DNA of 64,000 nt, from assembly GCF_017348915.1 (NCBI RefSeq), contig NZ_CP071383.1, positions 3,286,001 through 3,350,000 of the forward strand, read 5' to 3'. This document shows, one piece after another, positions 39,526 to 47,868 of the stretch; position 1 is the first letter of the stretch; each line of letters begins with the position of its first letter. The translations under genes were made by a program, and so were the position numbers. This DNA is from Leclercia pneumoniae. Its GTDB lineage: Bacteria > Pseudomonadota > Gammaproteobacteria > Enterobacterales > Enterobacteriaceae. Below the pieces are notes generated by a model that worked only from the letters and a program-made list of their open reading frames with translations, was not told the DNA's origin and searched no databases.

Positions 39526-39557
39526 AAAAACGGATCTGCATGCAGATCCGTTTTTTT
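39526..39557 (+). terminator. Intrinsic terminator after emrB
   Basis: A perfect palindrome AAAACGGATCTGCA/TGCAGATCCGTTTT is followed by a run of seven T. Because it is symmetrical with flanking A and T runs, it can serve both emrB and the convergent FKBP gene. Confidence 0.93.
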
Positions 39558-39561
39558 ATGC

Positions 39562-42500
39562 CTATTTAATGCCGATGATCTTCACCGTAATGATGGAGAC
39601 CGTGCCCGGCGGTACAAGCCCTGGCACGCCCTGTTCACCGTAAGCCTGCTTAGCGGGGATTATGATTTTGGCTTCACCGCCGAGACCAAGTCTGGTGGCC
39701 ACCAACCGGAACAGCGGTGGCAGGTCTTGCACGCGGCTGGCGCGCACCTCTTTACTAGACATCACTTTACCCGTGCCCAGTACTTCATCAAGCTCGGTAA
39801 TAATATTGCTCTGCCCATTAACCAGTGGTGCTTCACCCTGCTTGATGACACGGTAAATCGAACCATCTGCCGTTTTTACAGCGCCTTTTTCTTTTGCCGC
39901 CTTGCTGAGGATCGCTTTACTCTGTTTTTCGTTTTCAGAGAGCGTAGACGCCAGCTGTTTCTGCTGCTGTTTATCCAGCGTGGTCAGTTCTTTCGTGATC
40001 TTCGCCACCGGGAGTTGCAGCTGGTTGTTTACCTTATCGTTGAATCCCTGGGTGAATGCTTTCAGATCGAACTTCTTGCCCAGATCGGTCATTTTTATTT
40101 TTTCACGATCGGCGGCCTGACCATACCAACTGCCAATGGCATAGCTGGTTTGGGTATCTTTTGCTGCACTGGTATCAACTTTAACGCGCGGCTGTCCGCT
40201 AACAGGCTTCGTCTCTTTCGCTGCCTTTTCGCTGGCTGCCTGTTCCGTCTTCAGCTTCTCATTAAGGTTCGTCAGTTCGGTAAGAGAAGCGGCCTGCGCT
40301 TTCAATTTCTCATTCAGCGCAGCATTTTCTTTGTTAACAGACTCCAGCTTCTTACTCAGTTCGGCAGCCGCCTTGTCGTTGCCGACCACATTTTTTTGTA
40401 CGGATATCAGCGACTCCTGAGAAGCGATGACCCGCTTCGCATCTTCCAGCTGGCTGAGCGTGATGTCAGATTTCAGCTGCATGTTTTTCAATGCGGTCTC
40501 CTGCTCCGCCAGCTTCGCGGCAACAGTTTGCTTCTGCGTGGTGAGGCCGGAAAGCTGTTGTTCACCCGCCTGTAGCTTCGCTTTTAGCTCTTCAACCTGT
40601 CTGGAAAGATGGGCTGAGAGCGTATTCGCGCTCGCCAGCTTTTGAGCCAGCTCGCTGCTTTTTTGATCCGCAGTGAGACGGGTGGCTTTAAGCGCGGCCA
40701 GCTCATCTTCCAGCGTTTTTTTCTGCGCTTTAAGATCGTTCAGTGTTTTATTAAGCGCTTCGCCCTGAGTGGTAAAGGTCGTTTCAGTCGTCTGCTTTTG
40801 CGCTTTCAGGTCGGCAAGCTGCTTTTCCAGCAGCTGCGATTTTGCTTTTAACGCTTTTGCCTCTTCATCCATTTGCGTGGCGCGCGCCGTCGCACTGGCT
40901 AACTGCTGTGTCAGCTGCAAGCTCTGCTGCTCTTTGCTGCCAGTGGTATTTTTCAGTGCAGCAAGCTGCTCATCGAGCGTTTTTTTCTGCAGCTTAAGCT
41001 CGGCGAGCTCTTTGAGCATGGAGGCACTTCTGGCTGCCATCTCGCTTTCAGCACTTTGCTTCTGGGTTTTGAGCGTAGAAAGTTCCTTTTCCATCTGCTG
41101 AGACCGGGCTTTCAGCCCTTCTGACTCTTTAGCCAACTGCGTCGTTTTTGCTGTCGCGCTGGCTAGCTGTTCCACTAGCTGAACATTTTTTTGCTGCGAA
41201 CCGCTGCTGCTGTTTTTCAGGGCGGTGAGCTGATCGTCCAGCGATTTTTTCTGCGCTTTGAGGTCACTGAGCTGTCCCTCAAGCGTCGTAATTTGTGACT
41301 TGAGTTCAGCAAGTTCTTTAGTCTGAGCCCTGTCTTTGGTGGTCAGCGCAGTTTCTGCACTCTGCTTCTGCGCCTTCAGTTCGGTCAGCTGCTTTTCCAG
41401 CATCTGCACTTTTGACTTCAGGGTGGCAGACTCCTCCATGGTACGCGCAACGCGCGCTTTTTCTGCAGCAAACTGTTCTGCCAGTTGCGCACTTTTCTGG
41501 TCCTTATTGCCACTGGCGCTGACCAGCGCGGCGAGTTGATCGTCTACATTTTTTTTCTGGAGCTTGAGATCGGCAAGATCTTTGATCAACGTCGTGGTCC
41601 GGGTCGCCAGCTCATTATCCGCGGCCTGTTTCGCTATTTTGAGCTCAGAAAGTTGCTTTTCCAGAAGCGTCACTTTTGATTTCAGGGCTGCGGACTCTTC
41701 AGTCGTCTTTGCAGCACGCGTTTTTTCTGCGGCTAACTGCTCTGCCAGCTCTGTGTTTTTTTTCTGCGAACCAGTACTGGCCGTATTCAGAGCGATAAGG
41801 CGTGCATCCAGCGCCTCTTTCTGAAGTTTGAGTTCGGCAAGCTCTTTGACAAGGGCCGTGCTTTTGGTCGCCAGTTCGCTATCCGCAGCCTGTTTGCCTT
41901 TTTTCAGTTCGGCGAGCTGTTTTTCCAGAAGCTGTACTTTTGACTTCAGGGCGTCAGACGCTTCGGCCATTTGGGTGGAACGCGCTTTCTCAGCGGCTAA
42001 CTGCTCTACCAACGCTGCGCTTTTTTTCTGTGCGCCACTGCTGTCAGTTTTCAGGGCCGCAAGTTGACCGTCCAGCGCTTCTTTCTGAAGCTTAAGGTCA
42101 CTGAGTTCTTTAATCAGGGCCGTGCTTTTGGTCGCCAGCTCGGTATCCGTAGCTTGCTTCTGTACTTTCAGTTCTGAAAGCTGCTGTTCCTGACGCTGCA
42201 ATTTTGCCTTCAGCGCGGCTGACTCTTCAGACGTGCGAGTCACGCGCGCTTTCTCAGCGGCAAGCTGTTCTGCCAGCTCTGCGCTCTTCTGCTGCGTGTT
42301 GCCACTGGCGGCTTTAAGAGAGGCGTACTGCTCTTCCAGAGTCTTGTTCTGGCTTTTCAGTTCGGTGAGTGCTTTGTTTAACGCAACGCTCTGGGCCAGA
42401 GCAGCTGCCAGCTGTTCTGATTGCTGGGTGTTCTTTTGCGCTGTTTCGCCGCTGCGCGTCTCCAGACCAGAGAGTTTTGCTTCCAGCGCCTGTTTCTGCT

Positions 42501-43089
42501 CACGAAGGGCGATTAGCTCTTTATTCAGCGCATCGCTTTTTGCGTTTGCCTGGTTAAGCTGTTCAGTAAGTTGCTGGTTCTTTTGTTTATCTCGTGAAGC
42601 GCTATTTGGAAGCGTGGCTGCAAGACTGTCCAGGGCTAACTGTTGTGCATTACCCGCCGGCTGCTGCTTCAGCTTTGTAAGTGACTGCTCATGCGCCTGC
42701 ACACGTTTTTTTTCATTAGCCAGCGCCTGTTCCAGAGTCAATTTTTCACGCTCAATCTCCTGGAGGGAGTGGCCTAATCCTGTGATGGTGGCGTTCGCTT
42801 TACGGAGTTCTTCGGTCAGCCCGGCCACTTTTTTACGCCAGGTTGAACTGTCTTGCGAAGCCACAGGCAACGGCTTTGCCTGTGGCTTCGCTGGACGAGG
42901 GGCGGTTTTTATCGGCGGGGATTCAGGAACTGCAGCCGAGCTCTCAGTAGAACTAAAAGGGCTCGTGGGATCGTTGCCGATGATTTTTTCGTTACTTAAC
43001 TGTTCGAGCAGGTCGGTATTAGCTGAATAACTACTCCCACTGGATAAAAGCAATCCACAATAAAGAGTAGCAGTCACGTATTTTTTCAT
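39562..43089 (-). CDS. Giant exported coiled-coil protein with C-terminal FKBP-like domain
   Basis: This 1175-residue protein has a Sec signal peptide ending YSA near residue 23. A low-complexity Pro/Ala/Ser linker follows (about 40-80). Residues 85-940 are almost pure coiled coil rich in Lys, Glu, Gln, Leu and Ala. Within this lie six full repeats of 88 residues (272-813; the fourth has a 14-residue insertion), with partial copies on both sides. Residues 980-1062 resemble the FKBP N-terminal dimerisation domain (IGSWYGQAADREKIK). Residues 1068-1175 resemble FKBP (IIIPAKQAYGEQGVPGLVPPGT), but the FDSS-type substrate strand reads KVMSSKE. It overlaps the lipoprotein gene upstream by 4 nt. K-12 has no gene here. 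Its role is unknown. Confidence 0.87.
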   Translation of the reverse strand: MKKYVTATLYCGLLLSSGSSYSANTDLLEQLSNEKIIGNDPTSPFSSTESSAAVPESPPIKTAPRPAKPQAKPLPVASQDSSTWRKKVAGLTEELRKANATITGLGHSLQEIEREKLTLEQALANEKKRVQAHEQSLTKLKQQPAGNAQQLALDSLAATLPNSASRDKQKNQQLTEQLNQANAKSDALNKELIALREQKQALEAKLSGLETRSGETAQKNTQQSEQLAAALAQSVALNKALTELKSQNKTLEEQYASLKAASGNTQQKSAELAEQLAAEKARVTRTSEESAALKAKLQRQEQQLSELKVQKQATDTELATKSTALIKELSDLKLQKEALDGQLAALKTDSSGAQKKSAALVEQLAAEKARSTQMAEASDALKSKVQLLEKQLAELKKGKQAADSELATKSTALVKELAELKLQKEALDARLIALNTASTGSQKKNTELAEQLAAEKTRAAKTTEESAALKSKVTLLEKQLSELKIAKQAADNELATRTTTLIKDLADLKLQKKNVDDQLAALVSASGNKDQKSAQLAEQFAAEKARVARTMEESATLKSKVQMLEKQLTELKAQKQSAETALTTKDRAQTKELAELKSQITTLEGQLSDLKAQKKSLDDQLTALKNSSSGSQQKNVQLVEQLASATAKTTQLAKESEGLKARSQQMEKELSTLKTQKQSAESEMAARSASMLKELAELKLQKKTLDEQLAALKNTTGSKEQQSLQLTQQLASATARATQMDEEAKALKAKSQLLEKQLADLKAQKQTTETTFTTQGEALNKTLNDLKAQKKTLEDELAALKATRLTADQKSSELAQKLASANTLSAHLSRQVEELKAKLQAGEQQLSGLTTQKQTVAAKLAEQETALKNMQLKSDITLSQLEDAKRVIASQESLISVQKNVVGNDKAAAELSKKLESVNKENAALNEKLKAQAASLTELTNLNEKLKTEQAASEKAAKETKPVSGQPRVKVDTSAAKDTQTSYAIGSWYGQAADREKIKMTDLGKKFDLKAFTQGFNDKVNNQLQLPVAKITKELTTLDKQQQKQLASTLSENEKQSKAILSKAAKEKGAVKTADGSIYRVIKQGEAPLVNGQSNIITELDEVLGTGKVMSSKEVRASRVQDLPPLFRLVATRLGLGGEAKIIIPAKQAYGEQGVPGLVPPGTVSIITVKIIGIK
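40651..42276 (-). repeat. Six tandem 264-bp coding repeats (88 residues)
   Basis: Residues 272-359, 360-447, 448-535, 536-637, 638-725 and 726-813 align as tandem units starting L(A/V)EQLA. All are exactly 88 residues except the fourth, which is 102 because of an extra 14 residues in its second half. 88 equals eight 11-residue turns, so the register of the coiled coil is kept. Recent DNA-level duplication is plausible, and copy number may vary between strains. Confidence 0.9.
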
Positions 43090-43451
43090 AGATTATTCAT
43101 TTCGTTCGCGCGTTTCATCATATTGGAATAAACGCTGTTTTTTATTCTGACGCAAACTAACGAGACCTTCTTATTAATTTCCGTCAGCATAACTTCTGAG
43201 GCATTGGCATCAACCAGAGATTTGTTTGTTTCATAAATTCTGTAGTTTTTGTTAGTGTTTTCGAACTGTTTACGGTAGCCTTCATAAGCCGCAGGATCCA
43301 GCTTCTGGAGCGCGGAGAACTCCTGGTAGCACTGCACCTCCTGCTTACGCGCTTCAGGCTCTTTCGCAATAGGGGTGGTATTAACGGTGCTGCATGCAGA
43401 TAAAATAAATGCGGAAATTAGCACTGCTGAGCCTGAAACATAACTTTTCAT
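43086..43451 (-). CDS. Small lipoprotein paired with the FKBP coiled-coil protein
   Basis: This 121-residue protein has a lipoprotein signal (MKSYVSGSAVLISAFILSACST) with lipobox LSAC, so Cys20 would be lipidated. The mature part is helical with two more cysteines (VQCYQE, LVCVRI) that could form a disulfide. Position +2 is Ser, which favours outer-membrane sorting. The start at 43451 is chosen over a longer frame because it gives the signal peptide. It overlaps the giant coiled-coil gene by 4 nt, so the two are made together and may form an envelope complex. I do not recognise the family. Confidence 0.82.
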   Translation of the reverse strand: MKSYVSGSAVLISAFILSACSTVNTTPIAKEPEARKQEVQCYQEFSALQKLDPAAYEGYRKQFENTNKNYRIYETNKSLVDANASEVMLTEINKKVSLVCVRIKNSVYSNMMKRANEMNNL

Positions 43452-43655: not shown

Positions 43656-43682
43656 ACCGGCACCTCATGAAAAAGTGCCGGT
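43656..43682 (-). terminator. Terminator-like hairpin after luxS
   Basis: An 8-bp stem ACCGGCAC/GTGCCGGT with an 11-nt loop lies just downstream of the luxS stop. On the minus strand it is followed by a T-rich stretch (TTCTTATTATTA). Confidence 0.78.
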
Positions 43683-47137: not shown

Positions 47138-47214
47138 TGGTGCATCCGGGAGGATTCGAACCTCCGACCGCTCGGTTCGTAGCCGAGTACTCTATCCAGC
47201 TGAGCTACGGATGC
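47138..47214 (-). tRNA. argQ: tRNA-Arg(ACG), distal copy
   Basis: A 77-nt gene, GCATCCGTAGCTCAGC... to encoded CCA, with anticodon ACG (CTACGAA loop). It is identical to the three other Arg copies in this cluster. The argQ name is given by order relative to E. coli. It is the last gene of the ser-arg tRNA operon. Confidence 0.97.
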
Positions 47215-47279
47215 ATCGGGATTGACTGCTGTACTGCTTGATACTACATACCGCTTTGAAAACGACATGAAGTAATAGA

Positions 47280-47356
47280 TGGTGCATCCGGGAGGATTCG
47301 AACCTCCGACCGCTCGGTTCGTAGCCGAGTACTCTATCCAGCTGAGCTACGGATGC
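47280..47356 (-). tRNA. argZ: tRNA-Arg(ACG)
   Basis: A 77-nt copy identical to the neighbouring tRNA-Arg genes, with encoded CCA. The spacer to the next copy is about 65 bp and itself repeated. The name is assigned by order. Confidence 0.97.
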
Positions 47357-47420
47357 ATCGGGATTAACTGCTGTACTGCCTGGTACCACATACCGTTTTG
47401 AAACGACATGAAGTAAAAGA

Positions 47421-47497
47421 TGGTGCATCCGGGAGGATTCGAACCTCCGACCGCTCGGTTCGTAGCCGAGTACTCTATCCAGCTGAGCTACGGATGC
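47421..47497 (-). tRNA. argY: tRNA-Arg(ACG)
   Basis: A 77-nt copy identical to the others, with encoded CCA. Upstream of it in the transcript lies a truncated tRNA fragment at 47563-47580. The name is assigned by order. Confidence 0.97.
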
Positions 47498-47562
47498 ATC
47501 GGGATTTACTGCTGTACTGCCTGGTACCACACACCGTTTCGAAAACGACGTGAAGTAAAAGA

Positions 47563-47580
47563 TGGTGCATCCGGGAGGAT
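47563..47580 (-). pseudogene. Truncated tRNA-Arg 3' end
   Basis: Eighteen bases (ATCCTCCCGGATGCACCA on the minus strand) are the exact 3' end of tRNA-Arg, including CCA, without the rest of the gene. They are joined to an unrelated GC-rich segment (47581-47660) with an inverted repeat around CGGGCCG. A 3' tRNA remnant with attached spacer is a known pattern in enterobacterial tRNA operons (compare the rtT repeats of tyrT). Confidence 0.88.
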
Positions 47581-47694
47581 TACTCGGCTGCGCCTCACCC
47601 TTCGGGCCGTTGCTGAAGCAACGTTATCCTCTCTGGAGCCTGCAATTTTTTCGCAGACCATGAAACAACAGTATTGCTGCTATCTCAGAGAAGA

Positions 47695-47771
47695 TGGTGC
47701 ATCCGGGAGGATTCGAACCTCCGACCGCTCGGTTCGTAGCCGAGTACTCTATCCAGCTGAGCTACGGATGC
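47695..47771 (-). tRNA. argV: tRNA-Arg(ACG), proximal copy
   Basis: A 77-nt copy identical to the other three, with encoded CCA. It lies only 4 nt after the tRNA-Ser gene in the transcript, matching the serV-argV spacing type in E. coli. Confidence 0.97.
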
Positions 47772-47775
47772 AAAA

Positions 47776-47868
47776 TGGCGGTGAGGCGGGGATTCGAACC
47801 CCGGATGCAGCTTTTGACCGCATACTCCCTTAGCAGGGGAGCGCCTTCAGCCTCTCGGCCACCTCACC
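47776..47868 (-). tRNA. serV: tRNA-Ser(GCT)
   Basis: A 93-nt class II tRNA, GGTGAGGTGGCCGAGAGG... to encoded CCA, with a long variable arm and anticodon GCT (CTGCTAA loop). It reads AGU/AGC serine codons. It is the first gene of the operon. Confidence 0.97.

Follow-up and report, generated by a model that had tools for sequence, protein, structure and literature searches.

The window analyzed in this work is a stretch of 64,000 nucleotides of Leclercia pneumoniae (contig NZ_CP071383.1, positions 3,286,001 to 3,350,000), in which a pair of genes is placed on the minus strand between emrB and luxS. The first of these (43086..43451, minus strand), whose ATG at 43451 is preceded by a ribosome-binding-like AGAGGA, codes for a 121-residue lipoprotein with homologues of the PF27278 type, a lipobox cysteine at position 20 and further cysteines at positions 41 and 100. 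The second (39562..43089, minus strand) codes for a protein of 1175 residues, which combines a putative signal peptide, a hinged coiled coil, an FKBP_N domain and a divergent FKBP_C domain. An initial annotation had described two genes overlapping by 4 nt; both open reading frames (ORFs) are as it gave them, and the junction reads ATGA (43086..43089, minus strand). It had also placed them where Escherichia coli K-12 has nothing, which agrees with the genome of strain MG1655, where 63 bp separate the end of emrB (2814154) from the start of luxS (2814218) with no annotated feature between them.

Terminator-like hairpins are found both after luxS, in the interval between it and the lipoprotein gene (43656..43682, minus strand, 11 pairs), and past the FKBP gene (39526..39555, minus strand, 13 pairs), the latter being symmetric and hence potentially serving emrB as well. 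Thus, the pair looks like a unit of its own, and this layout suggests a separate transcription unit for the lipoprotein and FKBP genes. The window as a whole has 14 terminator-like sites versus 10.0 expected from shuffles, and 3 promoter-like sites versus 2.6 in shuffles, so that neither kind of signal is strong evidence.

Recurrence of the pair and its association with adhesin loci

The phyletic profile of the lipoprotein, a check that the initial annotation had suggested, is patchy, and its relatives often lie in or near chaperone-usher operons. Within the genus, 15 of 50 genomes (the window's included) carry some lipoprotein of this family; eight have the close type and in all eight, i.e. 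seven besides the window, the pair is situated between emrB and luxS. In three genomes from two further genera (L037-L039) the pair also lies in the luxS-emrB interval, where additional genes are interposed, and the close named relatives come from Leclercia and Silvania. At the level of the family, a single-sequence query (E <= 0.001) matches the lipoprotein in 35 of 198 genomes, while a lipoprotein profile, for which a first look scored few candidates, matches 16 of 394 genomes of the order at E <= 1e-5. Across the class, 3 of 274 genomes have a profile match: one is the window's own and the other two, both weak, appeared tetratricopeptide-like by eye and were dropped. The lipoprotein gene has no DNA match by blastn in a collection of 20,395 E. 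coli records; FKBP relatives of the pilus-linked type (see below) are found on plasmids, in 62 records.

To describe the neighborhoods of these genes we fetched stretches, mostly of 18 kb, around most of the lipoprotein matches; removal of three duplicates and two weak matches left 78 lipoprotein genes. These show a characteristic organization: in 38 of the 78 the next gene, at most 700 nt downstream, codes for an FKBP-tagged coiled-coil protein, and 27 of these 38 pairs share the -4 overlap seen in the window. In a further eight, judged by eye, the lipoprotein gene is followed by another, gapped, frame-broken or contig-cut coiled-coil gene. Lipoprotein genes lacking an FKBP gene precede an inverse autotransporter in nine cases and a type IVb pilin gene in two.

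The types with an FKBP or coiled-coil gene are linked to chaperone-usher pili: the fetched stretch includes an usher gene in 13 of these 46, versus 0 of the 32 others (Fisher P 5e-4). In 23 genomes, hand-picked among lipoprotein carriers with emrB-luxS-only and most autotransporter-only genomes excluded, an usher is found no farther than 10 kb from at least 15 of 34 lipoprotein loci, whereas 1.4 would be expected given 227 ushers over about 108 Mb. The corresponding Poisson P of 4e-11 is too strong, since the 15 include several syntenic copies from congeners. When 57 ushers are placed on a tree (21 linked, 35 unlinked and 1 near), the linkage needs at least 9 changes, and none of 500 shuffles, which averaged 17.2, went as low as 9. 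Thus, the linkage is clustered and yet has been gained or lost many times, and the pilus operons concerned belong to several usher clades. Fimbrial subunit genes flank the FKBP gene on plasmids of E. marmotae, E. albertii, Salmonella Macclesfield and E. coli, in operons with PapB-, PapI- or FaeA-like regulators; in that of E. marmotae, PapJ was also confirmed (PF14855, E 1.5e-59). A plasmid of Serratia entomophila carries the lipoprotein-FKBP pair with an usher operon on either side. The lipoprotein profile finds the lipoprotein in four of these five plasmid loci. As judged from these neighborhoods, the pair in the window is one copy of a recurrent two-gene module present in many Enterobacterales.

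Several loci depart from the two-gene form. In L041 (2375-11920) and L043 (7980-17731), neither of which has the FKBP tag, the gene directly after the lipoprotein codes for a type IVb prepilin and is accompanied by more genes for a type IV pilus. In L047, L048, L054 and L114 it precedes giant inverse autotransporters of 1745-2552 residues, and the lipoproteins resemble named Yersinia proteins. A Pfam search, prompted by the idea that the lipoprotein takes the place of LysM in the autotransporters and made with no control set, detected no LysM domain in the first 500 residues of six out of six autotransporters beside a lipoprotein, two of them from these four loci. A single inverse autotransporter gene is flanked by two lipoprotein genes in L046 (7411-11370), and L137 has three lipoprotein genes with no clear partner. 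In a genome of another family (L121, 6602-8830) the lipoprotein is followed by a 554-residue coiled-coil-like protein without a Pfam match. ORFs resembling LuxR-type regulators, from seeds named by eye, occur in the same stretches in L055, L093, L094, L096, L101, L047 and L048. Elsewhere in the window itself (47138-47868, minus strand), ARAGORN places four tRNA-Arg(acg) genes clustered with a single tRNA-Ser(gct) gene; a tRNA-Arg(tcg) that it also calls, on the strand opposite to one of these, is probably spurious.

Features of the two proteins

At the level of sequence, the products appear to be those that the initial annotation had proposed, namely a lipidated protein and a signal-peptide-bearing coiled coil with an FKBP-like end. 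In the former, an LSAC lipobox is evident by eye, and Cys20, Cys41 and Cys100 are invariant in 25 of 25 and in 61 of 61 aligned homologue rows. The spacing of the cysteine pair of the domain recurs in 77 of the 78 lipoproteins, the exception being an ORF called without its N-terminus. Under the Lol rule, aspartate at position +2 causes retention in the inner membrane; a regular expression located the lipobox in 76 of the 78 lipoproteins, with a few positions misplaced, and aspartate follows at +2 in none of them. By that rule, the residue points to the outer membrane as the probable site of the lipoprotein. AlphaFold predicts a three-helix domain, for which no informative fold match was obtained with the predicted structure. 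The precomputed accession PF27278 is attached to all 29 homologues listed in one set and to all 120 listed out of 143 in another, and is carried by homologues down to 15% identity.

The long protein begins with a segment that is signal-peptide-like by eye on the translation (residues 1-22, MKKYVTATLYCGLLLSSGSSYSA). The mature N-terminus bears a conserved motif (residues 25-45; 42955..43017, minus strand), in which T25, L27, L28, L31, E34, K35, I36, I37, P44 and F45 are invariant in 11 of 11 close relatives. The other, mostly pilus-linked, FKBP partners display a different N-terminal motif, P-x-[LIVM]-L (as in GVPALLQFAEQYQ), in 27 of 32 cases versus 4 of 118 signal-peptide-like controls, the expression having been devised post hoc. 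A 21-column profile misses the motif of the emrB-luxS-type partners in the pilus-linked ones; hence, there are at least two N-terminal types.

The spacer that follows contains seven repeat units of 88 residues (residues 255-867; 40489..42327, minus strand), the last of them partial, with 14 extra residues after the fourth. They score from 145.6 to 30.0 bits against a profile made from the first three units, and over part of the repeat stretch (41554-42296) the DNA itself has a period of 264 bases. Six of the units open with Gly/Ser-rich hinges, e.g. AASGNTQQK, TDSSGAQKK and NSSSGSQQK, while the last unit lacks glycine. The AlphaFold model, in which confidence is low (mean pLDDT 60.0, pTM 0.30), interrupts the helix at these hinges, giving segments 266-348, 353-435, 444-524, 529-626, 632-713, 720-801 and 810-900. 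This disagrees with the continuous helix of about 850 residues put forward in the initial annotation: on the repeats and the model, the spacer is better described as a jointed chain of helices of approximately 12 nm each, rather than as one continuous helix of 100 nm. Since hinges open six of the seven units, the chain could fold back. The earlier suggestion that the protein folds back or lies along the cell would hold if it is periplasmic, although the paradox of its length, from which that suggestion arose, is weakened by the short hinged segments. The equality of 88 with 8 x 11 had prompted us to consider a hendecad coiled coil, which we rejected as the core period of 3.52 corresponds to heptads with about one stutter per 88 residues.

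The spacer is far from constant among relatives. Among the FKBP partners, the longest run without proline N-terminal to the head spans between 42 and 1038 residues, and even at the emrB-luxS site it goes from 142 (L038) to 805 residues (L136). By pattern-match spacing, the repeat unit at that site is 88 residues in the window copy versus about 49 in L136, a congener whose 1167-residue protein (L136, 5247-8750) has its spacer built of these shorter repeats. A periplasm-spanning ruler was considered and rejected, as both the length of the spacer and its repeat unit are too variable. Given a variable spacer and repeat between conserved ends, selection seems to hold both ends of the protein and to leave the middle free.

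The C-terminal head consists of two parts. An FKBP_N domain (PF01346), the dimerization domain of FkpA/Mip-type proteins, occupies residues 979-1081 (39847..40155, minus strand) and is recognized by Pfam with E 3.8e-11 and 44.1 bits, above the cut-off of 22. It is followed by a divergent FKBP_C domain with its catalytic residues replaced (residues 1082-1175; 39565..39846, minus strand), which scores 17.1 bits (E 0.007), below the curated threshold of 21.1; two pilus-linked relatives, L144 (38.5 bits) and L101 (30.8 bits), exceed that threshold. As a whole, the last 212 residues match FkpA (PDB 1q6h) over their positions 4-212 with E 7e-15, and the head is 27% identical to the FkpA-like protein of the same genome over 203 aligned residues. 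Active-site positions, named by FKBP12 numbering, were scored on one MAFFT alignment from which the frame-broken L036 and short fragments were excluded: none of the 44 partners keeps Y26, F36, D37, W59 or F99, and all but one have Y82 (43 of 44). The FkpA-like and FklB-like proteins of the window's genome retain all ten scored residues (FkpA by construction). On this alignment, the head is a CATALYTICALLY altered FKBP.

The replacements are themselves conserved. Using patterns devised after the sequences were seen, [VI][IV]xDM is found in 30, [YF]PP[LIV]F in 28 and PPxLAYG in 31 of the 32 other, mostly pilus-linked partners; the emrB-luxS-like group shows a conserved version of its own instead, and the respective counts there are 0, 0 and 3 of 13. 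A replacement pattern that is itself maintained makes the head look repurposed rather than decaying. In the Silvania copy (L036, 4225-6595), the FKBP gene is split near the head into two overlapping frames, reflecting either a frame break or an assembly error.

A possible role in the assembly of surface adhesins

The explanation that we prefer, and to which we would give slightly less than an even chance, is that the two genes form a free-standing copy of an accessory module for the assembly of surface adhesins, comprising an outer-membrane lipoprotein and a holdase dead as a peptidyl-prolyl isomerase (PPIase). The lipoprotein, on the periplasmic face of the outer membrane, would dock the conserved N-terminal end of its partner, and the latter would dimerize through FKBP_N and the coiled coil. 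The non-catalytic, FkpA-like head might then hold unfolded or partly folded exported subunits, with the hinged tether keeping them near the outer-membrane assembly site, preventing their loss and handing them over. The chaperone function of FkpA is reportedly separable from its PPIase activity, which fits a head that has lost catalysis. The window copy, which has no adhesin operon beside it, would act in trans, on a pilus of the same cell (the genome has four usher genes), on the cell's single inverse autotransporter or on an unrelated envelope client.

Several observations weigh against such a role. None of the four usher matches of the window's genome is near the pair, whose neighbors are emrB and luxS, and the stretches fetched for the window copy and its 10 emrB-luxS relatives are likewise free of ushers; thus, the adhesin link of the window copy is inferred from its family. 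More generally, the fetched stretch lacks an usher for 29 of the 38 lipoprotein/FKBP pairs, and 11 of those 29 are of the emrB-luxS type. In 21 of the 78 cases none of the three kinds of partner (FKBP/coiled-coil, inverse autotransporter or type IVb pilin) follows the lipoprotein gene; in five of these an inverse autotransporter is present elsewhere in the stretch. Conversely, at L147, a plasmid locus of E. coli, the FKBP gene is present with no lipoprotein detected by the profile. Finally, a docking motif common to the mature N-termini of the autotransporters and of the emrB-luxS-type partners (LLxxLxxEkII, NPF) was entertained and found to be unsupported: with the 21-column profile, 0 of 9 autotransporters exceed the 95th percentile of the 118 signal-peptide-like ORFs, the best being L046 at 5.9%.

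Among the alternatives, the foremost, which we nevertheless regard as unlikely, is a structural tether that acts independently of adhesins: a lipoprotein-anchored long coiled-coil dimer that would span or run along the periplasm, setting its spacing or linking the outer membrane, peptidoglycan and inner membrane, with the head serving only as a binding or dimerization end. The very long helices, with a proline-free stretch of 800 residues, the stand-alone position of the window-type copies at emrB-luxS and the loss of catalytic residues from the head would all be in keeping with it. Nevertheless, a fixed spacer would hardly vary from 42 to 1038 residues in its proline-free stretch, a chain hinged at intervals of about 88 residues makes for a poor strut, and both the patchy distribution in the genus and the linkage to pili would be odd for a core envelope element. 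Still less probable, in our estimate, is a periplasmic holdase that serves outer-membrane and secreted proteins in general, i.e. an FkpA/Skp-like stress chaperone on a stalk that pilus operons merely recruited. Although the resemblance of the whole head to FkpA speaks for it, FkpA-like and FklB-like genes already exist in the same genome, and the patchiness of the family and its recurrent linkage to adhesin loci suggest a narrower set of clients. That the window copy has no present function and is a passenger retained by chance after an ancestral transfer is very improbable, for although most of the genus lacks the close type (8 of 50 genomes carry one) and the Silvania relative is frame-broken near the end of the FKBP gene, the 1175-codon frame is intact, its ends are conserved in all 11 aligned close relatives and the same site is occupied in three genera.

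The adhesin-assembly module could also be viewed more broadly, as a new class of helpers common to three secretion routes that are otherwise unrelated to one another, the chaperone-usher, inverse autotransporter and type IVb pilus systems. In it, an outer-membrane lipoprotein would act as a receptor and, in the two-gene form, would hold the catalytically dead FKBP holdase on a hinged coiled coil of evolvable length, keeping exported subunits near their assembly site; we consider this extension doubtful. If the assembly role is correct, a recurrent accessory of pili and other adhesins would have escaped notice, since its parts are annotated separately, as 'hypothetical protein' and 'FKBP-type isomerase N-terminal domain'. 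The module would also present a case of an isomerase fold retained as a non-catalytic holdase and set on a spacer made of repeats, and its two genes give a concrete target for understanding how subunits arrive at their site of assembly in the outer membrane. Being outside pilus operons, the copy at emrB-luxS offers a clean target for deletion.

Comparison with known systems

The initial annotation knew of no characterized counterpart for the pair. This stands to the extent that no description of the lipoprotein/FKBP pair was found in the literature searched, which mostly did not cover subscription journals; the pair is, however, not isolated, as copies of the module occur in many Enterobacterales and the lipoprotein homologues carry PF27278. 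The parts can be assigned to known families (FKBP_N/FKBP_C and, through the accession on its homologues, PF27278 for the lipoprotein), and it is their association as a module that was not found in print.

The accessory genes of inverse autotransporters offer a parallel for the lipoprotein. The zirTSU and sinH-sinI clusters, which were considered as a candidate parent system and not retained, have a gene for a small exported accessory beside the inverse autotransporter, with sinI directly downstream of sinH and ZirT translocating ZirS and ZirU (PMC6714894). As far as these descriptions allow a comparison, the lipoprotein is likewise a putative accessory encoded beside an inverse autotransporter; here, it is a lipoprotein encoded upstream.

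For the long protein, the nearest known architectures are E. coli FkpA (PDB 1q6h/1q6u) and the Mip-type FKBPs, which, like the window protein, have FKBP_N followed by an FKBP_C-like stretch; the putative signal peptide, judged by eye, would be a further similarity. Unlike these, the window protein has about 950 residues before the head, mostly hinged coiled coil, its FKBP_C site residues are replaced, and its gene is paired with a lipoprotein gene rather than standing alone. Further close parallels are the proteins annotated as 'FKBP-type peptidyl-prolyl cis-trans isomerase (N-terminal domain-containing)' in the plasmid pilus operons (E. marmotae WP_241556876.1 and others), which have the same architecture and the same catalytic loss as the window protein, but are shorter (418-534 residues), bear the other N-terminal motif and are encoded in or beside a chaperone-usher operon.

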